A stretch of 64,000 nt of DNA from Rhizophagus irregularis. Its lineage: Eukaryota; Glomeromycota; Glomeromycetes; Glomerales; Glomeraceae. The notes under the pieces were generated by a model. That model saw only the letters and a program-made list of their open reading frames with translations, was not told the DNA's origin and searched no databases. The DNA lies in the NCBI RefSeq assembly GCF_026210795.1, contig NC_089437.1, positions 2,728,001 to 2,792,000 of the forward strand, written 5' to 3'. Within the stretch, counting starts at the first letter, position 1. Every line of letters begins with the position of its first letter. Of the stretch, positions 1 to 52,200 are shown piece after piece. The translations under genes were made by a program, and so were the position numbers.

Positions 1-1269
1 AATCTGAAATTATTAAAACTGCAAACAAATATTGTGATAATATGGTAAAAAGAGGTGGTGGTGTGTTTGATATCAATGCTCGAATTATTTCACGCAAAGC
101 AAATCGAAATCGAAAACATTACCCGATAAATTCAGATAATTTCACGGAATGGCTAGTAGTACATATAACTATAGACGTTTGCAATGCGATGGGTGCAAAT
201 TGTGCCAGCACTGTGGCTGAGGGCGTTGCTCCATTCCTTGCTGAACTTACTGGTGGTCGAATTGGTCTACGAATTGTTAGTAATTTGAATGTAGAAAGGA
301 TGTCTAAGGTGAATTGATAAAACAACAAATAATAAAAGAATCTATTTTTTTCTCTGTAAACTGACATTAATATTTATCTATAGGCATCCTTTCGTATACC
401 ATTGCACATGCTTGCATATAAATCATTAAGTGGCAAAGAAGTAGCTGCACGTATCATTGAAGCTTATGAATGGGCTGAGGTTGATCCTTATCGGGCAACA
501 ACTCATAATAAGGGAATCATGAATGGCATTGACGCAGTTGCTCTAGCTACTGGTCAAGATTGGCGTGCAATTGAAGCTGCTGCTCATGCTTGGGCTTGTA
601 ATGGCGTGAGAACTGATAGTGATAATTTTCAGTCAAATGGTAGCTATGGATCTTTAACTACTTATTGGATTGAAAAAGATGAACAACTAGCCACATCTGG
701 CAAGCCCGATGATGAATGTTTAATGTTCTGTGGTGAATTAGAGTTACCTATAACGGTTGGTACCGCTGGCGGTGTTCTAAAAACCAATCAAGTCTATACA
801 TATAATTTAGGTATAATGGGAAATCCTAATGCACAAGAGTTAGCCATGGTAAGTGTCTAATTTTATTTTTTTTAAAAAAAAAATTTGAATAATAATTTAT
901 TATTAACATTTATTTATCTATGAACTTTTGCAGTCAATGGTATGTATAGGTCTTGCTCAAAATTTTGCAGCTCTTCGCGCACTAGCAACAGAAGGTATAC
1001 AACGTGGACATATGAGTCTTCACGCCAAGAATGTTGCCATTGCAGCTGGTTGTCCGGCTAATGCTGTTACGAGTATAGCTCAAAGAATGATTGAAAAAGG
1101 TAAAATAACATTATCATCAGCCAAGAACTTTATTGAAATCTATATGAATGAACAAGCTGATATTGGTAAAAACCTACTTTCAAATTCTCTTAAAATTGAA
1201 GATAAACTCGAAAAAGTTTGTGATAATTTAACAACTTTGAGTAGTCAAGTACAATGTCATATTAATTAA
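1..1269 (+). CDS. HMG-CoA reductase, class II (degradative/bacterial type), 5' end outside window
   Basis: Catalyses interconversion of HMG-CoA and mevalonate. Visible exons: <1-308, 384-848 and 934-1269 (TAA). The introns 309-383 and 849-933 are GT-AG and phase 0. About 368 residues are visible; family members have about 420-430, so roughly 50-60 N-terminal residues lie upstream. Landmarks: an AMGAN motif (CNAMGANCAST), the NKGIMNGIDAVALATGQDW block with the catalytic Lys and Asp, the GTAGG nucleotide-binding stretch, and the C-terminal catalytic His in GHMSLHAKN. The wording of these blocks fits class II enzymes better than the membrane-anchored class I enzyme usual in fungi. No membrane segment is visible, but the N-terminus cannot be seen. 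The downstream neighbour is convergent. The family call is secure; the class call is from recalled motifs, not an alignment. Confidence 0.9.
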
Positions 1270-3505: not shown

Positions 3506-5852
3506 TTGTATTATTTATATTAATCATAAATATACGTTACGGTTTCGAAAATTTTTTTTTTCAGATGCGATGATATTGTATATATATATATAATTTTTTT
3601 TTTTTTGTTTATCAATTTCTCAATAAAGGGAGTAGAAACCTCATGAAACAAATATATATTTATGTACTGTCGGTGAACCAGTTTTGCAGGGTGCTTAGTA
3701 ATACCGATTGGCTGTTAATGTTACAATACTTAAATAACTAATTGCGTCACAGTTTATCATTGCAACCGAAAAAGTTATCGTTTTATCTATCTACCATTTG
3801 ATTTACAAATGTTAGCACAGGCCTTAGTTAATTAAAAAAGTTAGTTAAAGTTAGCGCTGGCCGTGTGAGCCAGTTAATTAAAAAATTTGGCAATTTTTAA
3901 GTGATTTTTTGGTCACTTGATGGCATATTTTTACTGTAATTAGAGTTTATATTATATATCATTATTACAAAGATCATCTTGCATTCGCCGAAATTTATTT
4001 TCTTTCAAAAATTTATTAAAAGATAATCTTGCTTGTCACCGGTAAATTTAATCTATTTTTCAGCCCTTTTAACACCTATGTCATCTCACATATGATTATT
4101 TTTAACCTGTCAATTGTAAAATTCCGGAGAAATTTTTTATTTGTTTCAATCGCTTGAACTCACATGAATTAATATATCGATTAATTCTCATATGGATTAA
4201 AATATTTTCTACTCCCATATTAAACATTAAAATCGCACTTTTTAGTTAAGCGTGAAAATCTATTTTTTTTTTATTTTTATTTCAGCGTGATAAAGCACGA
4301 AAATCTATCAATTTTTAGCACTATTTACTGAAATGGAAGGTGTCAATAGCGCGTGAGATCAGGTAGATCAGGTTTGCCGATTATATAATCTATACAGATT
4401 ACAGATCGACGCTAGTTATCATTAAGACAGCGCAGTATATTGCTTAAGAAACAGAGTTGTCTATTCCTATTGCATATTTACTCACATTAATCATAATGGT
4501 TTTTGCGAAACTTGTAAAAGGAAGTTCACACTTTATTATGGATCAGTTATAAAGCTGATAAACATCATAATTCATTGATTCATAGATATAAAACAGAAAC
4601 AAGATTTACTTTTTTGAATAATGATAATAAACCAATCTATTAACGCGGTTTCGTATATGCCGTCTTAGTGAATCAGTAGAAGTAGTAAGTTATCAATTAA
4701 TTCATTTTAATTTTATTTTTTATTTCCTTTTTTTAATTCCTTTAGTTTCTATTTGACAAAATAATTCCAAAGAGTTTAAAATACGTAGAAAATATAACTT
4801 GATATTCGAGGATTAATTCAGACCATACTTGATAATAACAATATGAGAATACAACGCGAAGTATGCATTTTTATTTAATAATATTTTTATTGAAATCAGC
4901 CGCTTAAATTATTTCTTGAATGTTGATTTGATTTTATATACATATTAGCATTGAACTTATTTAAGTCAGACTGATGACTGTTCTATACGTTCTATACGAA
5001 CATTGAATAATAAATTCATATGGAAAATGGATAATCGATTGATAATGTGTTATAGGCAATTTGATTCCATACTGCATTTTTTTGGAACTTTTACTGAGAT
5101 AGGTTAGTATTAAATAAAGTTTTGATTTTCAGTTTTTTTTATTACATTGTTCGTAGAGATTGCTATAATGGTAAACGTTTTATTAACTGGAGATTATTCA
5201 AAAAAAATCAATTCATTTTTATTATAATAATTTGTACATACAAATTTACACAAAATAAATTCTATTCAAAACTATCAAAAGTTAAAGTTGAAAATAATAA
5301 AAATACAAAGAAAGTTTAGGTTTCTAACCGAAAAATTGGTAGAATATGTCGATTCTGCAAATAAAGAAATAAAAAATTTGAAAAAGAAAATTCGAAATTG
5401 ACTAGAAGAAATTTAAATAAAAAAAAAGAATTATAGGTATTTTTAATGCAGTTTCTTTTATAATTTTTTTTTGTTTGTAAAACGTACAAAAAGAATTTAT
5501 GAAAAAAGAAAAATTTATAGAATATCCAAGAATATTCTGAAAAAAAAAAATTAGACTAATAACTACTTATTTAAATAAATTGAAAAAATAACTAGAGTAA
5601 ATCTAATTTACAACAAAATCAATTAAAAATTATTTCGGCAACATGTTAGGAACTTTATAACATTAAGTAATAGATTATCGTTTTCCTCCTCAAATATTAC
5701 AAAAATTTTATTTTTAATCTTAAAAAATTTTTTTTTTTTTAATACAAATAAATAATAATATAATTTAATAATTCAATGTAATATAATAAAATAATAAATA
5801 GTCATTTACTCTAAAACTTGCTCTCTTTTAACATTTTGCAAATAATTATTAA
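3506..5852. other. AT-rich intergenic region, no gene seen
   Basis: Lies upstream of the hydrolase gene and downstream of coronin. A 65-codon ORF at 5122-5319 is low-complexity and looks accidental. There are short internal repeats, for example TTAATTAAAAAA twice near 3825-3890 and GAAAATCTAT twice near 4254-4308, which may be an old MITE remnant. No RNA gene recognised. Confidence 0.5.
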
Positions 5853-7888
5853 TTAAGATGATTTCAAATTTTCTAATTGAATCGTTAGCGCACGAATAGT
5901 AACATCTCGTTGTGCCAATTGATTCCGCAGATCATCGTTTTCTTGGCGCAATTGATGATATGCTTCTTGATACTATACATTAATTTATTTTAAAAAAAAA
6001 ACCAATATATAAATCATTCGCTTCTTGCCCAAATGATAAAAAATAAATTTTTTACATACTTCTTTTTCAGTTTTAGGAACTTTCTCTTCTTTTTCTTCTT
6101 CTTTTGGTGCCGTAGAAACAAATTCTTTTTTATCCTTAACAACAACTTCATCTTCTAAATTAATAGTTTTTGGATTTGCATTCTTTCCTTCAAAAAATTC
6201 ATCAGCCGTTAGTGCTGGTTCTCCACTTAATGTTGGAGGGAATAAATCAGCTTGGAATGCATCAGACTAAAAAAAACAAAATATTTAAACACAAAGCTAA
6301 TATTTAAACAAAATATTTCTATAAAAAAAAATTTGTGTTCAAACTCACCCTTCGCGGTACTACAAATGAAATTGGTTCAACACAATTACTAGTAACTTTA
6401 TAAGCTCTAGCAATTTCACATTCATTAACATTTACAGCACGTTTAGGCATAAATGCCATTCCACGTTGAGGCTCGGATGATTTATACTCTGATAAACTGT
6501 ATAATTCATCATTTTCAAATTCATAATAACGAATATTACCATCACTATTCGTTTCAAATATTAAAGTGATGTTAATTTAATTATCTTTCTAGCAAAAAAA
6601 AAAATATTACTTAAATATATATTTACTGACCCCTAATATTAACGCGGAAACAAATTTTTTTTTAAAAAAAATAAAAATATTAATAATAATTTTTTTCGCT
6701 TGTTTTATTTTTAGAGCATACATACCTTGCCTGCCAAATACAATATCTTCGTATCTTGATCATAAAATGGCATAACAATTCCAGATGACGTATCTAACAT
6801 CATAGTTTTTAAAGGTTTTTCCAATTTAGAAGAATCCCAAACATATACTTGGCGATCGCTCATTTTTGAAAAGCCTGTTGTCACAATTCTCTCACTATCA
6901 CCGAGCCATGCAACTCTGGACCCTTTAACACCCTGGTGACTTTGAGCTTCCTGAACTACTTTATTAGATCGTACATCAAAAATCCTGAGTTTTTTGTCAC
7001 GACATGTAGTAGCTAATAAACTGCCATTCCAATTCCAAGACATCGACTGTATGAAATCCAAAAAACCACTAAGTTCTTGTTTCCCTGCTCCTTTCTCGAT
7101 ATCCCATAATTTTATGGTAAGATCTGCAGATGAAGAAGCGAGAACATTATCTGCAACAGGATGAAATAAGACATGCCCAACCTTTCTTCCATGAGCATTT
7201 AACTTAGCTACGGGTTCAACATCTGGAGATTCCGGTTCACCGAGTTCTTCTGGAACTGACCAAATCATTACTTTGGAATCCTCGCCACAAGATGCAACAA
7301 CATAATCATTAAAGTTTGCAAAGTCTGTATCCAAAACAGGAGCGGTATGCGCGCGATAAAGTGGTATACCATCGTTAATTTTACCTAAAAATTAAAAAAA
7401 TAGACCAAATTATATAAATCAATTAATTATCTAATAGTAGATCTTTCATATTAAAACTTACCAACATTCTTATGCGGAATAACAGCAAAAGCTCCTCCTC
7501 CACCAGCATTCCAATTGATGGAAACAAATAACTGAAAATAAAAAAAAGTAAGTTAACCAATAAAAATCATCAAAACATCCGCTAAAAAAGCTTACAGGAT
7601 TAACTTTCACGAGATTGGTATCCCACGCGCTAGCTGAAATCTTTACATTATCAAAGCAATTATCATGTTTAGCCGCTGTACCAAAAACGTGTCTAGGAAA
7701 TTAGAAAAAGTAAACTAGTATATGTTAGCCAAAGTTGTTTATACTTTCGCTTAATCAGTTTTTAAGAGAAACAGGTAGTATTTATTTATTAACGCTGTAA
7801 ATAATACTATTTAAAATCAAAACCGTATTATGCCAAGATGAACAATAAGAATATACCTGAATTTCGAAGAACGAACAAAACGAGACAT
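5853..7888 (-). CDS. Coronin (WD40 actin-binding protein)
   Basis: Coronin regulates F-actin and Arp2/3 at cortical actin. Exons on the minus strand: 7888-7857, 7692-7596, 7531-7462, 7384-6726, a 2-nt micro-exon 6632-6631, 6544-6349, 6266-6060 and 5972-5853 (TAA); about 460 residues, usual for short coronins. The N-terminal signature MSRFVRSSKFRHVFG is intact. WD40 blades follow (SSADLTIKLWD, DRQVYVWDSS), then the coronin-specific strand LAGKGDGNIRYYE, which reads correctly only if the micro-exon supplies GG between K286 and the next exon. After it come a DAFQADLFPPT segment, an acidic/lysine-rich linker, and a C-terminal coiled coil (YQEAYHQLRQENDDLRNQL) for oligomerisation. Skipping the micro-exon gives an immediate TGA. 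Identity is very secure; the micro-exon needs transcript proof. Confidence 0.93.
6631..6632 (-). other. Predicted 2-nt micro-exon (GG) of coronin
   Basis: On the minus strand the sequence reads TAATATTAG|GG|GTCAGTAAAT. The upstream intron is 6725-6633 (93 nt) and the downstream intron is 6630-6545 (86 nt, acceptor GAATAG), both normal sizes for this gene. Inclusion restores the conserved K-G-D-G-N-I-R-Y-Y-E strand. Direct joining of the flanking exons reads AAG TGA, a stop. The donor GTCAGT is slightly off the usual GTAAGT/GTATGT. Confidence 0.7.
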
Positions 7889-8202
7889 TTTAACAACTTC
7901 AGTAAACTTTAGATAAAAGGCTATACAAAAGAGAAAAATTCTATATGCCAAGTTCTTGGTTATTTGAATAAAGACTCGCGTAATTTGTTACCTATTTAAA
8001 TTTGATGATCTTCATGTGCTCAAAACTTCGTGGCGGATATCACCGCCACTTCCATAATGGTTTTAGAAATTAATGAAACGCGATGTTTGACAAACAAAAA
8101 ATTTTATTTATTTTATATATTTGATTCTCGCATTATAAAAAAAAAAAAATCTATATTATTTTCGCGTTCTTTATTATAACCAACGCGTTCTAACTAGTAT
8201 TG

Positions 8203-9576
8203 TTAGGTAGATTGTTCCAAAATTTCACTTAAAACATTATTTAATTCGTTTTCGTTAATGTTATTCATTCCCTCATTATTGATCAAAGGCCAATCTTTTC
8301 TTAAATATTTTTCCTCCAATAAATCCCAATGTGGTGAAGCTTGTTGTCTTAACCAATTAAAATCTTCTACTGTATCATATTTATTAGTTTTTTGATCAAG
8401 TTTGGCAGCCTATGATAAATTTTTAGGAATTAGTATTTTTTTCTTTCAATTTTTTAAAATTCAAATATTTACCTCAAACATTTTGTCTAATCCAGGAATT
8501 GATAAAGTATATGGAGCAAACTTTATCTTATCACAATCTTCAATAATTGGATGACTTGTTACGTGAAGATATATATTCATTTGTTTTGAAGTATGCATTC
8601 GAAACTGTTACAAAAAAATGTTAGTCTTCCATTTCTTTTTTTATAAAAAGTGTATAAATTTCATTTTAGTTTATATTTTACCTGATGGCAAGCAACAACA
8701 AAAACACAATTTTCACAATCATGAATTAAAATAGAACTATAAACAGGACCGGCGAGAAGTACGCAATTCTTTAATCCTTTAATATGTATAGCACCGATAA
8801 TAACATTTTTACTCACAAGGTTAATAAAACAATTTTGCAAACTCGAAAGATGAAAATCCATTGTTTTTGTTGAATCATCTGTTGAAGAAGGGGGAGATAA
8901 ATAAGAATCTACTGTTAGATAAAAATTTTGTTTATTGTTTAATGTGATCATTTGAAAATTTTCGTTAGAAATTGTTTTAGAAATTGTAGATGTAGTTGTA
9001 GTGGATAGCGTTGCTTTGATAATATTTTGTTTATTTTCCGTTTCATTTACTCTTTCCCCACTTCCATTTGTAGCATTAGGTTTTCTTGATTTAAATGAAA
9101 ATTTGCTTTTTGGAGCTATTTCTGCTTTTTTTGTATTTAATTCTTCAACCAATGCCCTAATTTGCTATGTCAATTTATAAAAATTACTTTTAAGTCAAAC
9201 CATACAATTTATAAAAAAAGAATAATGTAAAACTTATTACATACCAAAATTGATTGCCTTTGATCATAACTAGGCAAATAAATCATAGCATCAGTAGCTT
9301 TTTTTTCTAATAAATTAATTCTAACTAATATTTCTTCACATAATTTTGTAATTAATGATTTTGGTTTTGTAGAAAGACTATTAATCGATTTTTGTATATC
9401 TTTAAAAAAATAAATAAATTAGTATATTCAATTATTATCAAAAAGACATAACCATTGTAAAGAGTACCTTTTCGTTCTTCTTGAAATTCTTGCCAGAATT
9501 TATATGCTACCGCTTCTTTACTATGTTTACTTGATATTTGTTCTTGTTTTGTATTTTGATCTCCTGAAGAGTTCAT
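8203..9576 (-). CDS. Tubulin-binding cofactor C (TBCC)
   Basis: TBCC is the GTPase-activating step in release of folded alpha/beta-tubulin dimers from the cofactor complex. Five exons: 9576-9468, 9399-9245, 9164-8682, 8604-8473 and 8409-8203 (TAA), with consistent phases, about 361 residues. The N-terminal third is helical with KEAVAYKFWQEFQEERKG, matching the spectrin-like N-domain. A Ser/Thr/Asn-rich linker follows, then the beta-helix C-CAP/TBCC domain with repeated hydrophobic-C patterns (LQNCFINL, LKNCVLL, DCENCVFVVACHQFRMH). The last segment includes a fungal-type VEDFNWLRQQASPHW block. The start ATG is the first in frame and lies next to an AT-rich spacer. It lies head-to-tail with coronin, 314 bp upstream of it. 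Confidence 0.9.
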
Positions 9577-9860: not shown

Positions 9861-10746
9861 TTATTGGTAATTTTTACGAAACAAAGATTGAACAGAACTT
9901 TCGATCCTTCTTGCATAAGACCATTGTATTAACCAATTACTTCCCCAACCTTCACTATTATCATTTTGTTCCTTTGTTTCATTATTTGCAGGAGCTTCAA
10001 CAAAGTTCTTTACAGCCAACATCATTTGTTTAGCACAAGTAATTTCTGGATAACCACCAACTCCCGTACCAAATCCGGCGCAAATAACACTGTTTATGCG
10101 TTGATGCTTTTCAAAGACATAATGGTTTTTCTTATCTGCATTTTCAAATAATCTTGCATTATGATTACGAATATGAGTTAACAAAGCCCAAGTACATCTG
10201 TAAACAATATCATCACAAGGATCTAATGCTTTTGGAGTTCTCATGGTTGGACAGTGAGCCAAGTAAACTGGGTAATTTTCTTTAGAAGGTAATTGTTTAA
10301 TTAGATTACGTAGATCAACTAACATACAAGTTCCAACATTTTGTTCTCCACACCATTCCTTTTCTATTTCTTTTTGTACGACAGGGATCAATGTATTAAC
10401 TCCACCATAATACTCTGATAAATCATAATCTAATCCTCCATCCATTAACCCAAACGAATTTGCCGGGGAAACTATACAATCAATTTCTTTGGTTTTTAAT
10501 AATGACTGAAATGGTTCATTGTGAATTTGTACTTTTAAACATTCTGTTGAATCTGTTGGCGATAATTTTTCTGGCAGTTTTGATAATTCTTTTTTCCATG
10601 CATTAATTATTGCCTAAAAAGCGAAGAGAATTAGGTAAACGTTTTATAAATATAACATAAATTATCGAGAAACTTACCGTACTTGTATCCACAAGATATA
10701 AATCAAAAGCATGAGGTGGAAGTGGTGATTCTTCTGATGTTGCCAT
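9861..10746 (-). CDS. Macro domain-like protein
   Basis: Two exons, 10746-10678 and 10613-9861 (TAA), joined in phase 0 to give about 273 residues. The core motif IDCIVSPANSFGLMDGG is the ADP-ribose-binding loop of macro domains (compare the family pattern VNPAN...GGG), and AGFGTGVGGYP is the second phosphate-binding loop. Family members bind or hydrolyse ADP-ribose derivatives; activity here is inferred only. The N-terminus MATSEESPLPPHAFDLYLVD is short and soluble, with no signal peptide. Residues after about 230 (NNETKEQNDNSEGWG) look like a disordered tail. It is the first gene of the minus-strand block; 284 bp separate it from TBCC. Confidence 0.8.
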
Positions 10747-11893: not shown

Positions 11894-14800
11894 CAGTGTT
11901 GGCACATGACCGGATGTGACCTAAATGACTTAGTGACTAAGTCATTAGTCATATGGTCATTTTAGCTTTGAAGAATTTATGTGACTTGGTCATAACGATA
12001 TATGATCACGTGATTTAACATGATTTAATTTTTACCGTTATAAAATTTCAAAATTTATTTATTATTTAATATATCATAAATTTTTACAACAAATACTATA
12101 AAGATTAAAACATATGAATTCATTTTTAAAGTGCTGAATAAATCTGATTTCCCTGTAAATAAGCAGGAAATCCTAAATTAGAAATGAACAAAGATCATAA
12201 CGGCCATTTTGCTGTCAGATCGTCTGCAGGATGAATTGTTCTTCCTCCAAAATTAAAGTCATTATCCATTTCACCATCTAAAAGTATTTCATCTTCAGAA
12301 TGATCAAATGTATTTTCACGTTTAATAGCTTCAATCCACTCTTTAACAAATATATTCCATCCTTGTTCTTTGTTCTTCAGTATGAGGTTCGGAAGAGTCA
12401 TTTAAAGTCAAATTATTACTTTCATTTTCACCATTATCATCGTCACTAACCAACAAATCATCATCAGTTAAGTTATTAAATTCAGGATTATTTATATTAT
12501 CATCTTCAATAATTGGTGTTGCTATATGTAAACGCTGAACTTTAGTATCTAATTCTTTTGCATTTTTTTTTGACGATGATAAAGTATATCACTTCGAATC
12601 TGACTCATAGCTAATACTTTTTTGCTCTAAAATATTAAATAATATGAATTAAATTTTTGTGTAATAAATAAAATAAATATTGATATAAAACATACCTTTA
12701 ATTTATTTCGCCTATTCGTGTGAAGAAAACCCATACTGCTCCACAATCTTTCAACGGATGCTGAGTTAATACAGACACCATGTATGTGTATCGCAACTTT
12801 TGCTAATTCTGGTCCAATACCAGCTGTAGAATCCCAATAATTTACCAAATTACCTTTAAATTGTGAAAATGTTTCAAGGTCATAAGGATCTTCACCATGT
12901 TTATATAAAATCATTTCAGCTACAATTGATGAAGGACAGGAATTAAAAAAAGCTTGATAATAGTATTTTAATGATTTTCCAATATGAGTCCATGTTAAAT
13001 TATTATTTGTAACTTGAAAATTTTCTAATTTGTATTGGGGGTGAAGAACAATAGAAAGAATAAGGAGCGGCTGCTCCCACTCCTTCCAACGTTTTTCGAT
13101 TCTTTCAACCATTCGTGAACCAAAATCAGTATCTTGGTGATTTTCAAAAATCTTAATAGTATTTGCAAAACAATGTGTTACTTCAAACAATCGTGCAGTA
13201 TCCTTCTGCAATTTATTTAAAAAGCCACATAGTGGATAAAGCATACGTGTAAGAAAAAAGTCGTCGACCAAAATTCTGAATCATTTATAGTATCAGCAAT
13301 GTCATCAGAAAGTTTTCGGTCGCCATTTTGGCTTGAAGATTTATCTGCAGATGCTGAAGGTATTCCATTTTGACGTGTTACATTAGCCCAATGTGGATTG
13401 AATTTTGCTGAAATAAACTTTAATAAAAAAAATTTAAATATTATATTTTTATTGATATAAAATATTTATTAAACTAATAATATTTACCTTTAATGCTGCT
13501 TGAGTTTTTAAAATAGAATAAAAACAAAAGTAATAACTGTTCCATCGAGTATCTCCTGGAGATGCTAAACATATGTGTTTATTATAAATTCTCATTTGTT
13601 CATCACGAAGATTTCCAGTAAAATACACTGATTTATTAAAATAAGTAACTAATCGGACTGCTTCCTTTAATATTCTTTCGATATAATTCTTTCTCGAAAA
13701 CGCCGCCAAAAACAAGATTCATTTGACGGCTACAATTTACGGTAAAAAAATTTTACTTTGGATATTTTCTTCTCATTTCGTCCGTCAGAAAAAATAAAGT
13801 TAAATTATTTTTCCATTAATAAATTAATAAGTATTATAATAATGAATTAAAATTAGGTTTATTAAATTTACCTTGCTGCTGCATATTCGCCTCGTGAATC
13901 TCGGCATAAATGCTTTTATACAAACATTTTTGTTTTTCGCATCTTCCATCATTTCTTTTATATGTTGGATAACATCAGCCGTACGAGATCGCTCAGCACT
14001 TATTTTCACGCTTCCCAAACCAAAGGTCAGTTCTTTGATGTAATAAATACTACACCCCATAATTGCTCCATTTTTACATTCGTCCAACCATCAAAGGCTG
14101 CCGTAACACCATCTTTATCATTTGCTGCGATTTTTACAATATTATGTTGAAGAGATTTAGCTGCATCTTTTAAGATTCTGCCACCAATTGCTTTACGATT
14201 AGGAAGAACAAGTCAGGAGCAATAAATTCAAATAATGCTTTAGTTTCTTCATTCTCTACAAAAGAGAAAGGAAGACCATTAGATACTGTCATTCTAATGA
14301 ATAGTTGTTCAAATCTAGGTACATCATTTGTTGACGTTTGGCGACGATAATATGATGTTAATGATTTTTGTTGGCTGCCAATTGAGTTAAAACTTGATAC
14401 TGTTGATGTAGAAAGTCTCCTTCGTTTTGCTAAATTTTGAATAGATTCATCATCATCATCAACTTCTATAATATCATTAACTTTGTCTTCAGGTACCGGC
14501 AATTTAAGGATTTCCTTTACTTCTTCTTCAGAAAAGGTTTTCTTAAAATTTTCACATTTAGCCAAGTGTGCACGACATAATCTTGCTTTATTTGATGTAT
14601 AACATTCTGGTCTTAATTTAGCTTCTTCTAACCCCCCATCACAATTATTAATACAACTATTGCATACTGCAAACGCATTTCCTTTATTTATTGTATTTTT
14701 AACAAGTGTAAAGTACGGACGAAAATTATGTGGTTCGGAGGCATTATTTATTTGGGTTGACGTTGAGTAAAAATTTTTTCGGTTAGTTGATTTACAAAAA

Positions 14801-15004
14801 AAGATTATCAATTAGAATTTTATTGGTTAATCAAACAAGGGTCACGTCAATTGTGACATAACCAAGGTGACTTATGGTCAGTGATGGAATACGTCACTTG
14901 GCTTATTTCGATATGACCGTAATGATCAACTACCATGGAGTCGATGCGTAGTGACCTATGTCATTTAAAAAAAAACAAAATGACCTGGTCATTTTCCATC
15001 ACTG
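11894..15004 (-). mobile_element. hAT-superfamily DNA transposon, 3.1 kb, full length
   Basis: Bounded by identical 8-bp duplications TCATGTGA (11886-11893 and 15005-15012). Ends are CAGTGTTGGCACATGACCG and, reverse-complemented on the right, CAGTGATGGAAAATGACCAG, fitting the hAT terminal pattern YARNG. Subterminal DNA on both sides is rich in TGAC/GTCA words (TGACTTAGTGACTAAGTCAT on the left), plausible transposase-binding sites. It carries a minus-strand transposase gene that is broken. Confidence 0.92.
12195..14811 (-). pseudogene. hAT transposase, frameshifted
   Basis: Recognisable in pieces on the minus strand. 14811-14170 has a BED-finger-like Cys/His segment (CRAHLAKCENF) and an acidic linker, and ends near IAPDLF, where the frame slips so that the expected LPNRKAIGGRIL continues one frame over. 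14160-13824 contains GVTAAFDGWTNVK and SAERSRTADVIQHIKEMMED across two more frame changes. 13715-13449 has GDTRWNSYYFC. 13400-12627 holds the catalytic-core end and the C-terminal dimerisation motif SASVERLWSSMGFLHTNRR. 12401-12195 gives the tail IHPADDLTAKWPL. At least three frame disruptions cannot be explained by introns, so no intact enzyme is encoded. Sequencing error in homopolymers could account for some. Confidence 0.85.
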
Positions 15005-27927: not shown

Positions 27928-29946
27928 ATGGGTAAAGATAACAAAAAGAAAAATAACCAGTCTAACAAAGATACTACATCTAAACGTCCTGCCTCTAGCT
28001 CTCCAACTGGCAACGTTTCTGGTCAAGGTTCCTCTATGTCTGGCCCTTCGAACACTCCACCTTCGACCACCTCTACTAATAAACGTACCAGAGTCAGTGC
28101 TGAAGACTCTGTCATGGATGTTGATAAACCTCTCACGCCTCCTGGCCCTGTTGAGACAACTTCCGCTGAGATACCTTCTCAACCCGATACCTCTTCTCTT
28201 GATGCTTCGCAACACGCCCCTGCTGATAACAACGATAAAGGCAAAAGCCCTGAAATTACTCCTGCAGTCTCTTTCCCTGAACGTGCTGCCTCTCCGGACG
28301 CGTCCCAAGCTGCAGTACAATCTCAACCTACACTTTTCTACGCCTCAGCCGCTCCTAATGACGTCGATGGCTTTGGAATCACTTCGCTTCGAACCGCGAC
28401 GCGTGCGATGCAGTTGATCGACAACTTTCTTTGTTCTCCTCTTATGGTAGTCGTGCCACGTGTAGTGGATCCAACGATTTGAAGAGGATCATCATCCACT
28501 TCTGAAAAAAGGAAGATCTTGACAACGCCACAGCCTCCCCTATGGATTCTCTGTTTGGCTTGCATTTCCATGCATACGACCCTCAGGCTATTAAGGCAGA
28601 TGAACACGCGCGTACCCTGGTGGTTACCGATATCCCCTTTTCCTAACTAACGCTCTTTTGCGTGGTACCTTTTCTCGTTACGGCAATATTACTCGTTGCC
28701 ATACCCGTTTATCTAAACTTTATCGTACTGCATACATTACCTTTGAATCTACTGGTGCTTTACAGAACCTCGACTCTACCTGGGGCATCCTTTGCGGAGG
28801 ACATTGTTTGCGAATCTGCCCCGCTACTTTCTCACCTGACCAACGCGCTGAAAGATGCGCTTATGTTGCTTTACTTGCCGGTCTTCGCGTGGTACTATAT
28901 CGGTCGATCTTGCTGAAATTGCCGATGAAATTTCCGCTAAATCTATCAATGTTCCCTTCTCTATGAATTCTTACAATCCCAAACCCTACGCCTATTGCCA
29001 TTTTGCCTCTGAAACGGCTATGGAAAATGCTAAATCTATTTCATGTGCCCTTAAGAAAGTTGGCCTTACCTGGCATTCTCTGGATGAAGTCACTTCTCTT
29101 TGTCATCGATGTGGTCGCCCTAATTGTAACCCTGATCGATGTGGTTCTTCATCTAGACCTAATCGCCCTTCTCGCCCTTGGCAATCTAATGATAAATTAC
29201 GTGCTTTATATAACAAGCATTTACCTTCTTCTCATCCTGCTAAACGACATAACCGTTTTGCCCGCCCTGATAACAATAATGATGGACAAAGCCGTACCAA
29301 TGCTTCTCGCCATCGCTCTAAATCCAGACCTATTACCCGACAACAATCTCGTTCTCGCTCTCAACGTCGCCCATGGAATCGCGACAACCTTAATCACAAC
29401 AATAATTCTCAACGTCGTCGTATTCCTGATGCTAAAGAACTTGATTACTATATTGATGGCATGGATGTTACATACCCTGCCCCTCCCACCGTGCTTACCG
29501 ATTGGAAATCTATTGGTGCTGCCCTTGAAAAAGTAGTTGAAGAACTAGCCCTTCTTACCACACAATTTGCTTCTATGAACAGCCGCATCACTAATTTGGA
29601 ATCCGCTATGGCTGCTCGTGCTCCTATTCCTGGACCTTTTGTCACTAAACCTCCTTCCTACATCCCTTCCTCTATGCAAGGATGGGATGATACAGTGAAT
29701 CGAACTGATAATAATATCCTCGTTGATGTTAATTCTCCCCCTTTGCAATCAACAAGTGGGTTTTCCCCGATTCCTCATTTTGCTCCCATTCCGCCTTCCA
29801 ACGTCGCTCCTTCCTCCCCTATTGATATGGAACAGCGTCTCTCCTCTCTTTCCGATACTGTTGCCTCTTTGGCTGGCTCGATTAAAGAAGGAATCCAACA
29901 AAACAACCTCATCTTAGCTCGGCAACAAGGCCAAGCTAATCAATAA
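27928..29946 (+). pseudogene. LINE ORF1 (nucleic-acid-binding), broken
   Basis: Starts MGKDNKKKNNQSNKDTTSKR with a Ser/Pro/Thr-rich N-terminal region and is open to about 28340; then the frame shifts. A TGA near 28503 and a TAA near 28644 interrupt the middle region, which contains an RRM-like stretch (TLVVTDIPF then GTFSRYGNITRCHTRLSK). The last frame (28855-29946) has a Cys/His-rich knuckle LCHRCGRPNCNPDRC, an Arg/Ser/Asn-rich basic segment and a C-terminal heptad-like region (VEELALLTTQFASMNSRITN). It would coat the LINE RNA. Confidence 0.8.
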
Positions 29947-29993
29947 TTGTTCTCTTTTCCCCTTCTTTATTACCGATTTATCAGTGTGTAATA

Positions 29994-32900
29994 ATGATGG
30001 ATAACAATAATCATAATTTTTCCCCTCACCCCTCTTTCCTTATCAAATTTGGTCAATTAAATGTTAATGGTTTATGTTCCCCAGTTCGACAACAACATTT
30101 GCTTAATTTTTTTCTTCACTCCTCTTTTGGTGCCTTATCTATTAATGATACACGTCTTTCCCCTTCGAATGCTAAATTTATTTTTAAAAATGAACACTCC
30201 CAACATCACTTTAAGTCCTATTGGGCTTGTTCATCTTCTTCTCGCCCTCATGATGGTGTTGGTATTTTGTTACGTAATCCCCTTCATAAGCATGTTCAAA
30301 CAATTGATCCTTGGAACGGTCGACTTCTTAAATTAGATTTGTTCTTTCATCAAACAAAAATTTCTATTATTTCTATATATTATCCCCCTTCTGGTTCTGT
30401 TCATCAATCTATTTGCAATGATCTTATTGCCAAACTTCTTTCTTGGCTCGATTATGCCCGAGCTAACAATTATTTTGTAGTTATTCTTGGCGATTTCAAT
30501 GCAGATGTAATCGCTCATTCTAATTATTCACCTAATCATTTTAAGCTTCTTCGCTTGCTTTCTTCTCGGTTTTTTACCGATCATCAAGCTCACTCCTCTA
30601 CAAATGGTCCTGATCCCACCTTTTTTCACGATAATGGATCTTCGAGACTGGATTATATCTGGTCTTCACCTGGTTTTCCTGCTCCTGGTCTTTTTTCGCA
30701 AGTGGTTACTTGTCCGAATCTTTTTGATCGACCTTTTACCGATCACAAAGTTCTTACAACTGTTTTTGACTTCAGTTCTTGCCTGGCCATCTTGGCTAAA
30801 TCTCGTCTTAAACAAAAGAAAGAAATGCGTACTATTTTCTCTTACGCTTCCACTTCAGTTGAACAATGAAATAATTTTACCACTGAAGTCGATGATTCTC
30901 TTAGAGTTTATTTAGATAGACAATATCACCCTAATTTTGATTTCTCCTCTCTTTCTCTTGATCGTATGTGGCATGCATTGAAAGCTGCCATAATTAGTGC
31001 TGCAATTGAAACTCTACCTTTTCAAAAAGTCTCCAATACACACCGACATTCGTACTCTCCTGAATTAACTAAACTTATTGCTATTAACAAGTTTTTAGAT
31101 CGATTTTTATATCGCCTTACTACTCGTCATTCTAATCGGCCTACTCAGATTGCGCAAATGACTGCTGCTTTGCCCTCCCATCTTGAAAATCTTGCAACCT
31201 TACTCCCTGATTATTCAGTTCCTACCTATTCTACATCTCCTGTATCTGTATTTAAATCGTTTTTACGATCACAGAAGAATTTAGTTTCTGCTTTTTTATC
31301 TACTAAATTCGCCCAACACCTTGCGGACTCAGTGGAATATTATACTGCACTACGTGATGAACACTTTTCGAACTCGCTCGGCACCTTTATAGATTCTGCT
31401 TTATCAGTAAAAAAACGTTCAATTGTTCTTGACCGTGTTCTGGTCGTTTTGGACTCAACTCCTACTTTATTAACGGATCCTTCGGATATTAAACATGCAG
31501 CTGTTTCTCATTTTCAATCAATTGTTTCTCCTCCGTTGATCCGCTACTCTTCCATCATTTCGTTTCCCGCCCGATGGCAACAAGCTTACACTCCTCTTGC
31601 TAATGTGTCTGCTTCATTATATGATCCAGTTTTGGCGCCTATTTCTCTACAAGAATGGTCTACTGTGATTTCCTCCATGCCAAATAACAAAGCTTCCGGC
31701 CCTTCAAAAATTTCTTATGAGATGATTAAACATCTGTCCGGAGAAGTCTTGGATTTCTCTCTTTTACTGGCCAATACCTGCCTTTCTCGCGGTGATATTC
31801 CTGCTGACTGGCGTGAAGCTGTGGTTTATCCTATTCCTAAACCTCACGAATTTGATGCTCAACTTAAAAACACTCGACCTATTACCCTTCTGGAAACAGT
31901 TCGAAAATGTGTAGTTAAGGTCGTCACGAATCGTCTCTCCAATATTCTTGCTGATAATAAAGTTCTCCAAGGAGATAACTTTGCTGGCTTACCTGGTGGT
32001 TCTACTGATGTCCCTATCAAAATGCTTGATGCGATTATCCATCAACATAAACATGACTCTACTGATGATCAGGAACTATGGATCGTTTCTCAAGATATCT
32101 CTAAAGCTTTTGATTCTATGGATTTAAATATGCTTAAATTAGCTTTAGATAGGTTACATATCTCTGCACTTTTAGTGCAATTTATTTTAAATCTTTTTAC
32201 ACGACGAAATAATAAGATAATTACTTGTCATGGCGATACAGCTGCTTATAGAGTACGTGTTGGTATCGATCAAGGAGAAATCATTTCCCCCCTTCTTTGG
32301 GTTATTTATTTGGATCCGTTACTTACTGTTTTGAATCAAGAAGCACGGGATCCCTTTATTTTACAATCTTCAGCCCTTTTAAATTATTCTCCACTTGAAT
32401 TTGAACAACATTCTTTACCAGTTTCACATTTAACGTTTATGGATGATTCTACACTTATTGCTTCTTCCAAATCTGGAATAGAAGACCGTCTTTCTATTAC
32501 TGCTGAATTTTATACTTTAAATAATGTTCAAGCCAATTCAGCAAAATATGTTCTTCTTTCATCCTCTTCGCCTTCTTCAAAGATTATTTTTGAACTTTTA
32601 CCTTCTTCTTTAGTTTCCGATACTTCTCTTTCTCTTTCCTCTTTATCTCTTAATACTTCATTTCGTTTCTTAGGAGTTTGGTTTTCCTTGTCCGCCTCTT
32701 CCGCTTTTGTTTTGAAACAAGCGCGCTCCATTGGTCAAAGATACGGCTGCTCTTCTGGCCCGAAGAAATTATTAGGCTCCAACATGCGCCTATCTCTATA
32801 ATGCTGTATTTCTTCCGCGATTGGAATTTCGTCTTCAAACTACCCTTTTCTCTGAAAGTACTATTCAATCAATTGTTAAACCTATGTTTTCAGTACTTCG

Positions 32901-35388
32901 AAGAAAAGCTGGGCTTATTACGACTACTCCGTTGGCTTTGTTATTTCTTAAACTTCCCTTTTCGATTCAGAATGCTTTTTATCGATTCCTTTCATAACAT
33001 ATCGCATCTTGGCAAAAAATTTTCATTACCCTGACTTCAAAGATTTTGCCCTCTATGCTATTTCCTATCTTCAAGGATATTTGGGTGTTGAAAGTTGCCC
33101 GACTACTATTAATCTAGAACCATGGTCACAAGTAGTTTCCTTACGAACGCACACTTTGTTTAATTCATTATTATTTTCTTCGCGTTTGAACATCACGTGG
33201 TCCCTTTTCTTCCAGCCTCCGAGGCGTGATTTACAACCTGCCTTGCCACTCCGATCTATTCTACCCCATTCCATCTTTCAATCGAGTTAGAAACTTTGGA
33301 AGAATTTGAATATATTCGTACTTGCTCAATTGGTTTCTCCTTGTGGACGTTATTTGATGAACTGGCCCGACCTTCGTTACCTTGGCATCGTTGGTCATAA
33401 AGGACGGATTCCTAATTGGTTTAATTTTATTAATAATAATTTTCTTTCTTCTTCTTCTTCTTCTTTACTTTTACCTTTGTATTTTATTAATTCTTTTTTT
33501 ACTTTAGCTTCTCCTTGTTTATTAGATCATACTGTTAAAGATTATCAATTTTATCCTCAATGGGCTATTAATTTAGATTCTGCTACTCATACTTTATCTG
33601 TTGGCCGTGTGTGTATCACCTACAAGAAACAAAACTCAGCTATTATGTCTCATTGGCTTCCTGTATCTACCTCGGCTGATGAACGATCCTATAACCCTTG
33701 TCCCGGTTGTGCTCTTAACATTCCCGCCTTATCCATGAAATCTGCCATCAGACAACGCTGTAATAGCGAGAAATGCTTCTATAATGTAACTCTATCGGAT
33801 ACTGTGGGCTACCCTACCAGAAATGCCAAAGTTTTCGCGGCTTACCTTCCCATTACTCTATCTACTTCATGGAGTTATGCGACTTCCTTGGCTCTTGTTC
33901 ATTTTTCGAACGCGTCTCCCGCTCTTTCTCCTTTCTTTAAGGATAGAATCGATAGAATTGAAGACAATATCTTACCGCTTTCTGTGCAATCTTTGTACAC
34001 AGATGGTTCATTCCATCCTGCCAATGATTCTTCGCCTTCTTCCATGACTTCTGCTTGGATTGCTCTTGATGATGTTGGACTTGTTCTGGAATCTTCTTCC
34101 ATACATCTCCCTTCTTACTTTCCTTCAGCTTTGCGTTCCGAAATTTCTGCTATTCTATTAGGATTGAACGCCCTTTCCCGTGACTCGTCAATCTCTATTC
34201 ATACTGATTGTAGTCAGTTAATTTCACTATGGACACGGTTTGTTGATGTTTCCTTTCTCACCGAAGTTGCTTCGAGAACCTAATCATCTTCTTTGGCTTT
34301 CTATTCGACAACTTATCATGGATCGTAATCTTAATGTCGATTTGATTAAAGTCCCTGCCCATGGCGATGACATCTACAATATACAAGCGGATTCTTTGGC
34401 AAAAGCTGCTCATTCGTCTTTACAACTCAATATTCTACTTTCAACATTTTGTCATGCTCCATGCTTGTTGACTTTTAACTCCTTGCCTATTGACGTGAAT
34501 ATTCGACATTTTCTCCGATCTATTGCAGATGCTCGTGCTCTTTTATCTTTTTGTTCACTAGCGCGTTTTACTGCTCTTGGTTCTCCTTCACTTTTTGATT
34601 GGGCTGGTATATATTTTTGCCTTTCACAAATTAAAGGTTTCGTTTCACATAGAATGGTTGTCCTGAATTTTGGATCTTCCGCATTAAACTTCTTTTGGAT
34701 ATGTTGCCTACCTTAACTACTCTTCAACAACGTAAACCTTACTTATATTCTCCTGACTGGCTCTGTCCGCAGTGTAATTCTGCTCCTGAAGATTTGAATC
34801 ATCTTTGGACTTGTCCTTATATTTTACCGGAATTAAATCCCTGTTTAACACACCGATCTGAAGTCATTAAATTTAGAGATTCTTGTTTATCTTCTTTCCT
34901 ATCCTTGAAATCTTTGGATAATTCCTTTCATACCGAATTCTTTGCTTTGGATTGCTGGGAACCCCTATGGAAGCTATTCACATCCTGTCTTTTGAGGCAT
35001 TACCTAGAGGATTGTTGCCTGCGCATTTAACCTGGCATTTTTCAATCAACACTTTCCTCTCTCTCGTTATATACAAGATTATTTCTCCCCTTCTTAATGA
35101 CTTCGAAGTCGAATTATATGGTGAAATTTGGCTGTGTCGGAATGTTCTTTTCCATGCTTGGGAGGAGTCGCAGGGTATCTCGGCTGCTTCCAAATTACGT
35201 GGCCCATCTACAAATTCTTTCCCTAATACTACTTCTACCCAACAATCAACTCTTCTTTGGTGTCAGTTTCTCAGGATTCCTGGATTTCTTGGATATCCTC
35301 TTCTATAATTCGGGGTGGATCTTGGATCTCGCACTTGGATTTTCTGCGCCGCTTAACAGTTCAACCTCTTAGGATTTCTTTCTGGTAA
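29994..35388 (+). pseudogene. LINE ORF2: endonuclease, reverse transcriptase, RNase H, CCHC finger; broken
   Basis: 29994-30866 encodes an APE-type endonuclease (KFGQLNVNGL, VVILGDFNADV, SSRLDYIWSS, TDHKVLT). A single in-frame TGA (30867-30869) separates it from the reverse transcriptase, which is open to about 32740 with SQDISKAFDSMDL, DQGEIISPLLW and the catalytic FMDD. After a frame slip near 32740 the thumb region continues in other frames to about 33360. RNase H follows at 33990-34400 with acidic residues in LYTDGSFH, RSEISA, HTDCSQL and IQADSLAKA (a frame change at about 34260 separates the last). The CCHC finger CPQCNSAPEDLNHLWTC lies at about 34765, and the product ends near RISFW-stop at 35388. 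Confidence 0.85.
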
Positions 35389-47696: not shown

Positions 47697-49256
47697 TTAA
47701 ATCAAAACTGGAGGAGAACCAGCGGTAAGTGGGGAGTTGGTAGCATAAGGTGAACCTGAGTAGAAACAATACTGATTTACAAGATCATAATATGAACTTG
47801 ATCCGATGTCAGGTTTTGATGGTGATGGAATCGCGATTGGATTCGAATTATTCAATTGTGAATGTGAAATGGGAAAATCAGAAGTACCTGGCATCCCATC
47901 AACATAATTATTTGGAAAAAATGCTTGAAAAGCTTCGTTACTATAATTATTATTATAATTACCATATTGTACTTGAGGAGCGAAAAATTGAAATGTACGT
48001 GAATAATCATTTGTTGGAGTTACTGGAGCTGATGATCTAGAATTTTGAGCGACAGACAATGAAACACCAATATCATAACGTCCCATCACTCTCTTTCTTA
48101 CGTCATCCATATTTAATTTAGGTGAAGATTCCAATGTTGGTGGAGAACGACAAAGAGATTCATTCAAATTCTTAGTTGATTGACGTGACATGGATGCCAT
48201 AGACCATTTCGATGAATTGGATGAAGTATTTTGATTATTTTTACTTTTTTTATTATTAGAAAATATAGTTGATGAAGGTGGTGTTATCCTCTTAAAATTA
48301 ACTTGATAATTTGATCCATTATTATTATCCCAAAAATCATTATTTTCTACACTATAATGAACGGCAAAATACATTGTCTTTCCATCAATAGGATTTCTTG
48401 AATTATCGATCAACTCGATAGAGAAAATGAAAGCATCAAAACTATTCTTATTATCCTTTGAAGTTATACCTTCAACAAAAGTTGCTCGTACTTCAGATAC
48501 GGTAGACCAAAAATCAAAAGTGTACCTTACATCAACAGTTTTTTGAAAAGCAATATTTTGTACCATAATTCGACCTTGAAGTTTTCTTTTATCTTGAGAT
48601 AAATAGATTGATTCTACGAATACAGGTTTTGAACTATGTAAAGTAGTTATAACAGGTCTATTTGGAAGAGAAATGATAAGTTCAGGTTCTTCAATGTTAT
48701 CATCTTCATCATCAGAAGCGGAATAACCAAGTATATTATCATCAAATACATTATCATCGTCAGACTCCTCATCAGATGAGACATCAGCACTTACAGCTTG
48801 TGGTCTTTGTGCCTCATTGAACAACCTAATTTGTTCCAGATCTGCATTGAAATGTACATACTTTGGGAAAGTGGGCGTAACAGGCTCGGATTTTGAAAGG
48901 CCCTTTTTAAGCGAGGGTTTTACAATCTCACCACTCTTCTTTCTTAATATGCAAGGACGAATTTCGGGTAATGGCAATGTAGGTAAGTTAACTTTTAAAG
49001 AAGGTTTTCTTGAATATGATTCTGGAGCAGATTTACGTCTTGGAGAAGTTGAAAGTTGAGGAGAAGTTGAGAGGATATCTTTGACTTCCTTTATAGCATT
49101 ATCACGATCGATATCTTTCACAAAATCATTAGCAAATTTGTCCAAATCAAAATTCTTCTTTTTAGAACCAATAGACGATATCGTTGAAAAAGGCCATCCT
49201 TTACAAGGAGTTGATGGGGAAAGAGCAGGACTTGTTGTTGGAGGTGTGTAAGGCAT
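47697..49256 (-). CDS. Protein phosphatase 1 regulatory subunit with CBM21 domain (glycogen targeting)
   Basis: Intronless, 519 residues. Such proteins bring PP1 to glycogen and glycogen synthase. Seen here: a disordered Ser/Pro N-terminus; an RVxF-like PP1-docking motif KYVHF (132-136) followed by NADLEQIRLF, as in Gac1/Pig-type subunits; an acidic stretch (160-190); a CBM21 domain at about 205-325 with VQNIAFQKTVDVRYTFDFW and the conserved WDNNNGSNYQVNF (309-321); then an Asn/Ser/Pro-rich tail with no known domain. The start ATG at 49256 is first in frame. It is isolated, with about 10 kb of AT-rich DNA on one side and about 7.6 kb on the other. Ser-Pro sites (SSPKL, TPTF) make phosphorylation plausible. 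Family call is strong; which paralogue cannot be said. Confidence 0.88.
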   Translation of the reverse strand: MPYTPPTTSPALSPSTPCKGWPFSTISSIGSKKKNFDLDKFANDFVKDIDRDNAIKEVKDILSTSPQLSTSPRRKSAPESYSRKPSLKVNLPTLPLPEIRPCILRKKSGEIVKPSLKKGLSKSEPVTPTFPKYVHFNADLEQIRLFNEAQRPQAVSADVSSDEESDDDNVFDDNILGYSASDDEDDNIEEPELIISLPNRPVITTLHSSKPVFVESIYLSQDKRKLQGRIMVQNIAFQKTVDVRYTFDFWSTVSEVRATFVEGITSKDNKNSFDAFIFSIELIDNSRNPIDGKTMYFAVHYSVENNDFWDNNNGSNYQVNFKRITPPSSTIFSNNKKSKNNQNTSSNSSKWSMASMSRQSTKNLNESLCRSPPTLESSPKLNMDDVRKRVMGRYDIGVSLSVAQNSRSSAPVTPTNDYSRTFQFFAPQVQYGNYNNNYSNEAFQAFFPNNYVDGMPGTSDFPISHSQLNNSNPIAIPSPSKPDIGSSSYYDLVNQYCFYSGSPYATNSPLTAGSPPVLI

Positions 49257-52200
49257 TTTTGATTATGATGTAAATGTGTGTTTTTATGTGAGTGTATGTG
49301 TATAAAAGAGATAAGGGAAAAAAGTAGAAAATTATAATATATATATGTGTGGAGTAATTTATCCCCTGAAAAAAAAAAGTGAAAAAGTGAGTTATTTTAT
49401 ATATCAATCAAAAAAAAAAATGATATTAAATAAACTAACGATATTAGGATAAACGTCAAGTTATTATTATATTAATAATATTAGATAAACGAACATAAAA
49501 AACCGAATTTACGAGAAAACGTTAGACGCGTTTAGAAAATTCCACAATTTTTTAAGGTTTCACCTTAATAATATACGAGTGAAGAACACGGTTTTAAATA
49601 AAAGGAGAAAAATAATAACTTGACGAATACCTTCATAAGTTATAGATGAGAAAGGGGGAAAAAAAAATAAAATGATATAAAAACTTACTGGAAAAAAAAA
49701 TCAAATTATTGATTTAATAAAATTATATTTTTTTTAAAAAAAAAAATCAAAGAGAAATATGTTTTTATTTTTGTTTTTTTTATAACGACTTTAAGGTAAA
49801 AAATGTAAATATTACAAATATATTTCGCGTTAAAAAAATGATGATTAATAAATTTCGTATAAATTTCTTTTTTTTTTGAATGGAAACCAAAACCAAACTT
49901 GTTTTGTTTAAGATAATAAAAGAATATTTTTTTTTAAAAAAAAAAAATTCAAAAAAAATTTTTTGGTGGGATTGAAGCGAAAATAAAAGGTTTTTATAAA
50001 TGAATTTTTTTTGTTGATAAGGATAAAAAAAATTATATTGAAACAATATAAAAAAAAATCTTTCGGTTATAAAAAAAATTTTCAATATCTATAAAATCAG
50101 TAAAAAAAAAAAATTTAAAATAAAGCATGCATAAATAAAAAAAAAAAATTTTTTTCAATTAATTTCAATATATAAATAATAAATAAATAAATAAATAAAT
50201 AATCAGTATATATATATGTATATAAAAAAAAAAAGCATTCAAATAATATATTGTACATGATAAACATGATAAAAAAAAAAACGCATATATATATATATAT
50301 AATAACAGGATTTAAAAACGGTTTTGACATTTGGGGGACAACTTGTAAGGTCCATTATCTTATATATCAGAAACAATTGTATGGGATTGATAAAAAGATT
50401 TGATTACCTTTTTTACATGAGAAATAAGTTTGAAAGTTTGAAAATTTCACCGTATCATCATCATCAAAAAAGGAAAAAAGAAATTATTGTGGTTTGAATA
50501 AACCTTTATTTATACCTACGCACCGCATATTATAAAACAATTACAAACATGAGAAAAAAAGACCATTCCTTTTTGTCAATTTTCGGTTGGCTAAAAAAAA
50601 AAAAAAAATTTTTTTATGGAGATTAACTTCAAATGGACATAATTTTCTTGGTTTTCGCCATCTCCGCATTTTTTGAAAAATTTCGCATTTTTTATTTATT
50701 ATTTTTAAGTTTGCGGTTAAAAGAATTTCTTTTCCGGAAATATCATTCCATTAATATTTCATTTTAATAATGTATATCAAATGATTTCGATAACTCCGGA
50801 TAAGAAAAAATAAAAATAAAAATAACAATGAAATATACCTTTTAGAATTTTTCTTCTTGAAACGAATGAGAAAGTAAGTTATATTATAAATTAATAATAC
50901 TAAAAGGGAAAAGGATGATCACGCGTCAAAAAAAAAAACCATTTTTTTTTATAAATTGTATTTTAGAAGAAAATTGGCTTGGTTTCTTTGATGCTTAATG
51001 ACAATCTGGGGTAAAAAGGATGAGATAGGAAAGGCATTTGGGTAAGTAAGTAAGTTGATGCTCAAATGGATGTACTTTGGTAAAAAAATGATCGAAATGT
51101 TTATTCTGGGTAAAAGTTGTAAAAAAGTTCTATATCAAAAAGTGGCGGTAATGATGATAATTTGGTTAAATGGAAAAAAAAAATGTATGATGACGGTATC
51201 GTAATTCTCTCGTAGAAATGATAAATATTTGCAAGGTCAAATTTTAAAGAATTTCAATTAAACCAGATCTGTAACAAGATTATTTTATTTTAGTCCTAAA
51301 TTTAGAATTAAGAGTTTTAACGTCTATCATTAATTAAAAGTCAAATTAAAATTCAAAATTAGACCCCCTGTAATTTATAATTATTATTAATTTAACTATA
51401 CTATCTAAAGTCATTCATTCATTTGCATTAGCTAAGCCTATACTAAAAAATTACATTATTCAAAAATTTTCATTCTTCCTTATCCATCCAATCATAAGTA
51501 AATTTCCCAGCTATGGGTAAAAAGTCAAAAAAAAAAATTTTTTTTTTTTTTATAAATAAAAAAAGTATGAAAGCACAATGTTTCACATTATTGGTTCCAT
51601 TGTACAGTACATACTTAATTATAAAAAAAAAATTTACATACATGTGGCGATTGTACTTTATATTTCTGATATTTTAATAAAATATTATTGATCAAAAAGA
51701 TAACAACAAAAAAAAATTTAAAAAAAAAATATTTTTTATCGTTAAAATTTGATTGGTTATGAGGATAAAATTGCATTATCAATGAAAAAAAAAAGGTACA
51801 ATAAATAACAATAATAATAACTTTGATTACAACCAAAACTGCGGGATATTTATTTACCGCAGATCGTATTCTGATTTGTTGTTACTGCGTAAATTTCAAA
51901 ATTTTCTTTTTACTTTTTTATTTTATTTTATTTTATTTTTATTTATCTTTTAAAATATTGGGTAAAGTAAACCACCGAAGTAAACAATGATAAGAATAGT
52001 TGTTATCAAAAAAAGGGTAAAGGGTTTTCAGCAATGTTTTACAATTTGTCGATTATGTTGATTACAAAAAATTTGCCAAGGCAAGTGAATTTTTGTAACG
52101 TTATAAAAAAAAAAAATTAAAAATTTAATTTAAATCAGCTGATGAAAATCCATTAAAGAAAATATTAAATATTTTATAAAAATTAAATTATTTAAAAAAA

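Follow-up and report, generated by a model that had tools for sequence, protein, structure and literature searches.

The coronin gene of the arbuscular mycorrhizal fungus Rhizophagus irregularis very probably gives rise to a pre-mRNA in which a predicted exon of two nucleotides, GG, lies between two ordinary GT-AG introns. The gene runs from position 7888 to 5853 on the minus strand of the window (by which we mean the whole 64,000-nucleotide stretch of DNA that was analysed) and comprises seven ordinary exons in addition to the proposed GG exon (Table 1). With GG included, the coding sequence is 1383 nt long and encodes 460 aa with no internal stop codon. Coronin is an actin-binding protein, and its correct reading in this fungus apparently needs a two-letter exon; if used, the GG exon would be among the smallest exons known and would be a predicted addition to the very short list of exons of 1–3 nt. 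The case shows that tiny exons of this kind can easily escape automatic annotation, which in R. irregularis, a model fungus, may present an intact gene as broken or truncated.

Table 1. Predicted exons of the coronin gene and the two introns flanking the GG exon; slashes mark splice boundaries, here and in the text.
Feature	Positions	Strand	Remarks
Exon 1	7857–7888	minus	Start codon at 7888; protein aligns with coronins from residue 1 or 3
Exon 2	7596–7692	minus	
Exon 3	7462–7531	minus	
Exon 4	6726–7384	minus	3' end TTG GCA GGC AAG (L A G K, residue 286)
Upstream intron, 93 nt	6633–6725	minus	AAG/GTATGT ... TATTAG/GG
Predicted 2-nt micro-exon GG	6631–6632	minus	With the T of exon 5 would form the Gly codon GGT of GKGD
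Downstream intron, 86 nt	6545–6630	minus	GGG/GTCAGT ... GAATAG/TG
Exon 5	6349–6544	minus	Starts T GAT GGT AAT ATT CGT TAT TAT GAA (DGNIRYYE)
Exon 6	6060–6266	minus	
Exon 7 and stop codon	5853–5972	minus	C-terminal tail, coiled-coil-like by eye

Identity and reading frame of the coronin gene

The predicted protein has the architecture of the coronin family, with an N-terminal DUF1899 domain, WD40 repeats, a WD40_4 domain and a match to solved coronins over the full length of the propeller. The DUF1899 and WD40_4 models from Pfam both exceed their cut-offs, and residues 1–352 align nearly end to end with solved coronins, the top match being Coronin-6 (E 3.6e-101). DNA and protein searches of the whole genome (146,748,485 bases in 32 contigs) found no second coronin gene. 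The protein search, which scores the best candidates only, returned ten matches, six of them on the coronin gene itself and four weak ones elsewhere; beyond the gene's own locus, the DNA search returned two matches of 35–56 bases on contig C25, both of which fall within the upstream-intron part of the query. When the exon 5 protein was compared with bacterial and archaeal genome contigs, none of the 54 pattern matches was confirmed, nor were any of the five pattern matches in viral contigs.

Exon 4 and exon 5 are separated by a gap of 181 nt. Joining them directly, from 6726 to 6544, produces LAGK followed by a stop codon (AAG TGA) and then by many further stops downstream. A sequence-only reading of this DNA had noted the stop at the joint in an otherwise intact gene; we obtained the same coordinates and detected no other stop. 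A broken joint of this kind would be expected of a recent pseudogene damaged between exons 4 and 5, but the 460-codon model is free of any other stop or frame break and this is the sole coronin gene found in the genome, and we regard decay of the gene as highly improbable. The conserved protein sequence points to the bases that are missing. All five coronin chains with listed alignments, the most distant of which (4ozu) we take to be apicomplexan, read GKGD at this place, and the missing codon should therefore be glycine; because exon 5 supplies its T, the two missing bases should be GG. The earlier reading had located a GG between AG and GT within the gap, and all of its coordinates are correct: the site TATTAG/GG/GTCAGTAAAT spans 6638–6621, with GG at 6632–6631. 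It had further claimed that adding GG recovers the conserved coronin strand, which it does in the form of GKGD, and that the two introns into which the gap is divided are of normal length for this gene, the other introns of which measure 164, 64, 77, 82, and 87 nt. GG has the features of an ultra-small (1–3 nt) coding micro-exon, being two nucleotides placed between a usable AG and a usable GT, flanked by introns of normal length and needed both for the reading frame (AAG TGA without it) and for the conserved motif (GKGD with it).

Splice-site strength, competing paths, and chance expectation

The strength of the sites was scored with matrices built from 45 introns of conserved genes of the same genome (chaperonin, Ras-like, proteasome, and carrier), a small control set that was chosen partly by eye, and the GG-site scores were ranked against the leave-one-out scores of these 45 controls. 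The controls were drawn from 34 of 43, 30 of 55, 17 of 26, and 8 of 95 matches, mainly those in loci with a neighbouring match. Among the resulting 47 adjacent pairs, 41 had a single-intron solution and six had none. Three of the 41 solutions were weak; two of these were replaced by two-intron solutions containing 34-nt exons and one was retained. Of the six pairs lacking a single-intron solution, a Rab-like pair, in which two introns were recognised by eye, was included; a CCT pair with a good two-intron solution (22.7 bits) and another with a weak one (14.4 bits) were left out, and the remaining three gave no solution. The final set comprises 39 + 6 = 45 introns in genes other than coronin.

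The donor of the upstream intron scores 10.07 bits and its acceptor, TATTAG/GG, 6.91 bits, at or above 38 and 39 of the 45 controls, respectively. The downstream donor, GTCAGT, scores 7.65 bits, at or above 25 of the 45, and the downstream acceptor, GAATAG/TG, 4.41 bits, which is at or above 12 of the 45 and below average. The donor and acceptor at GG both fall inside the range of the 45 same-genome introns. None of the 45 control introns has GTCAGT, or any C at donor position +3, and the score of this donor consequently rests on its other positions. Branch points followed no clear consensus; YTRAY was present in 26 of 39 introns and occurs in both introns flanking GG.

All splice paths between 6800 and 6480 consisting of one or two GT-AG or GC-AG introns were enumerated. 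A path was kept if every intron measured 50 nt or more, its sites scored positively, the frame was intact and there was no stop, which left 20 paths. We ranked them by splice score and by similarity, calculated as the mean against segments of three coronins; the best 12 of 20 by similarity and the best 8 of 20 by splice score together contain 16 distinct paths. The path with GG is first in both rankings, with a splice score of 29.0 bits (next 27.7) and a mean similarity of 117 (next 93). The 27.7-bit runner-up also includes the GG exon, and its later acceptor removes conserved sequence. Among the 20 legal paths tested, of which these 16 were listed, the GG path alone yields GKGD without loss or insertion. 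The use of another site, such as the donor ATT/GTATTT at 6741 spliced to 6544, would give a shorter coronin reading ...KIFDGNIRYYE... with the frame kept and no stop, but it scores 6.2 bits against 29.0 and a similarity of 71.3 against 117 and loses the LYLAGKG stretch, which makes it very improbable. Two further models were considered and rejected. Combining a GC donor at 6730 with a 22-nt exon keeps the frame but exchanges K-G for other residues (20.0 bits, similarity 89), and an AT-AG model (GGT/ATGTAT, reading K-V-D) is likewise in frame but is non-canonical and alters the conserved glycine.

The direct join reads AAG TGA T, and the ribosome could in principle pass it by a +1 shift at AAG-TGA-T after removal of a single 181-nt intron. 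Antizyme mRNA is a known example of +1 shifting at a slow stop codon. The product, ...GK-DGN..., would however lack the glycine that is present in all five of the listed coronin alignments, and the strong GG site would be left unexplained; we consider such frameshifting extremely improbable.

The main rival to the GG exon is a 2-nt sequence error. Under this explanation exon 5 has lost its first two bases in the assembly or in the nucleus that was sequenced, a single intron of about 181 nt is removed and the exon in truth opens with a whole Gly codon. The assembly is Nanopore-based with a stated consensus quality of Q36.27, so errors exist, but its polishing drew on Illumina as well as Nanopore reads (PMC10234402). 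Introns of such length do occur, one of the 45 control introns (median length 80 nt) being at least 181 nt long. The error would nonetheless have to be an exact loss of two bases at this place, joined by the chance presence of a GG site with good signals.

We estimated how often such a site arises by chance in two ways, both with earlier matrices that still contained two later-replaced introns. AG/GG/GT placed so that both flanking introns could measure 55 nt or more was found in 50 of 11,037 overlapping 181-nt windows with a G+C content of at most 30%, and 20 of those 50 have a donor score of at least 5 and an acceptor score of at least 4 (the GG site itself being included in both counts). 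When the gap was dinucleotide-shuffled 20,000 times, the same arrangement appeared in 0.195% of the shuffles, and in 0.115% with decent sites. By these two estimates the chance occurrence of the GG site is about 0.1–0.5%. With the final matrices, 89 AG-NN-GT sites in the AT-rich parts of the window were scored, both strands considered, and the GG site alone combines a donor of at least 7.6 bits with an acceptor of at least 6.9 bits. Little freedom of choice is left because the protein fixes the need for GG beforehand. A 2-nt sequence error, +1 frameshifting and the use of another donor all need the GG site to be a coincidence, and we judge the first of these to be quite improbable.

An origin of the GG exon by duplication was not supported. 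Comparison of the two flanking introns (A and B) gave a score equal to or above the observed one in 32 of 1000 shuffles, a similarity that reflects an A/T run and fails after four tests. The corresponding numbers were 983 of 1000 for the two donor surroundings, 826 of 1000 for the two acceptor surroundings and 346 of 1000 for the micro-exon against the start of exon 5. No tandem repeats were found in 5800–8000.

Proposed order of splicing and known relatives

The need for GG in the frame, its splice sites, their strength and the restored motif are all visible in the genomic sequence, and we infer that the GG exon is used and constitutively included. For introns this short, the unit of recognition is normally the intron itself (intron definition). 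Because an exon of 2 nt can hardly hold two splicing complexes at once, removal of the two introns should be sequential. In plant micro-exons the upstream intron is reported to be retained for longer or more often detained (PMC8831610), and in potato invertase the second, downstream intron is reported to be removed first (PMC4674806); by the same order, the downstream intron of the coronin pair is probably removed before the upstream one. The 86-nt intron would most likely leave first, whereupon GG would open an ordinary exon (TATTAG/GGTGATGG...), and the 93-nt intron would be removed second. The spliced product would read ...LAGKGDGNIRYYE... and encode the full 460-aa coronin. Omission of GG would place a stop codon directly past the lysine at residue 286, and inclusion must therefore be usual if coronin is made. 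It is conceivable, though we think it unlikely, that the GG exon is old in Glomeromycotina and serves as a regulated control point, at which the downstream intron leaves first, a second step that fails or comes late leaves a stop codon in a key regulator of actin, and inclusion sets the amount of coronin. If true, such a regulated GG exon would, as far as our literature search shows, be the first 2-nt exon described for a fungus.

The closest known relative is found in the CYP621A cytochrome P450 genes of Fusarium, for which a 1-nt exon (AG/G/GT) in the Gly codon of a PKG motif has been reported on the basis of 18 RNA reads and an alignment of orthologues (the abstract gives 20, the discussion 24 genes); the authors claim it as the first such exon for a fungal gene and cite older work on exons of 2–5 bases in Arabidopsis, Drosophila, and humans (PMC12940212). 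In both cases an ultra-small fungal exon lies between AG and GT inside a conserved Gly codon (PKG there, GKG here), and in both it is detected through flanking exons that are out of frame and an apparent intron roughly double the normal length. They differ in that the coronin exon has 2 nt rather than one (AG/GG/GT), is predicted rather than backed by RNA reads and comes from Glomeromycotina. That the same logic applies to the G-only, Gly-codon exon of Fusarium is a hint that micro-exons of this kind may originate by a general route. Arabidopsis APC11 has a constitutive 1-nt exon for which stepwise removal of both flanking introns has been proposed (PMC4674806), and it shares with our proposal for coronin both the constitutive exon and the removal of flanking introns in succession. 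In plants, APC11 and VPS55 have 1-nt exons that are described as conserved across land plants and confirmed by RNA-seq and RT-PCR (PMC8831610). Annotation misses these exons and, as predicted for coronin, their omission results in a wrong protein; the upstream introns of micro-exons are more often detained. Unlike the predicted 2-nt exon of coronin, they are 1 nt long, and the term 2-nt does not appear in the main text of that paper (PMC8831610). A functional micro-exon has also been described in Trichoderma Xlr2 (PMC11121469).

Stwintrons and zero-nucleotide recursive splice sites are related to the GG exon in mechanism. A stwintron consists of two introns, one of which interrupts a splice element of the other, and nothing exonic is left between them (PMC5639578). 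The coronin gap resembles fungal stwintrons in that one apparent long intron would be cleared by two successive splicing steps, but it differs from them in that GG must stay, and it is not a stwintron, since the joint with nothing between 6726 and 6544 reads AAG TGA. The sequence-only reading had also raised recursive splicing through an AG/GT site. Its strict zero-nucleotide form does not apply, as there is no intronic AG/GT in the gap and the stop persists in any joint that lacks GG, whereas splicing in two ordered steps with GG left behind would fit. Our search of the literature on 2-nt exons, on micro-exons in Rhizophagus and other fungi and on coronin in R. irregularis, which left most subscription papers outside its reach, found no report of the coronin GG exon. 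Nanopore and Illumina RNA-Seq data have been published for R. irregularis DAOM197198 (PMC10234402), and because long-read RNA data exist for this fungus the prediction is testable at once.

Other features of the window and genome

Several other features were observed in the window. An ORF at 30870–32801 (plus strand) matches a reverse transcriptase (PF00078, E 1.3e-17), and the long overlapping plus-strand ORFs around it, at 28852–34716, resemble a non-LTR type retrotransposon by eye. ORF pieces at 12343–14811 (minus strand) resemble a broken hAT-type transposase by eye; the single piece scanned, 12627–13280, had no Pfam match at 1e-5. A long ORF at 47697–49262 (minus strand) contains a CBM_21 carbohydrate-binding module (E 1.4e-32) and may encode a glycogen-targeting phosphatase subunit. 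Further ORFs match HMG-CoA reductase (384–860, plus strand), TBCC (tubulin-binding cofactor C; 8661–9164, minus strand), Macro_2 (9861–10613, minus strand) and CDC37_N (61764–62390, plus strand).

Elsewhere in the genome, exons of 34 nt are predicted at the DTAGQE motif of Ras-like genes on contigs C25 (near 1194800) and C10 (near 2138500), which were noticed because the single-intron solutions were poor; small exons are predicted in other genes of this genome as well.
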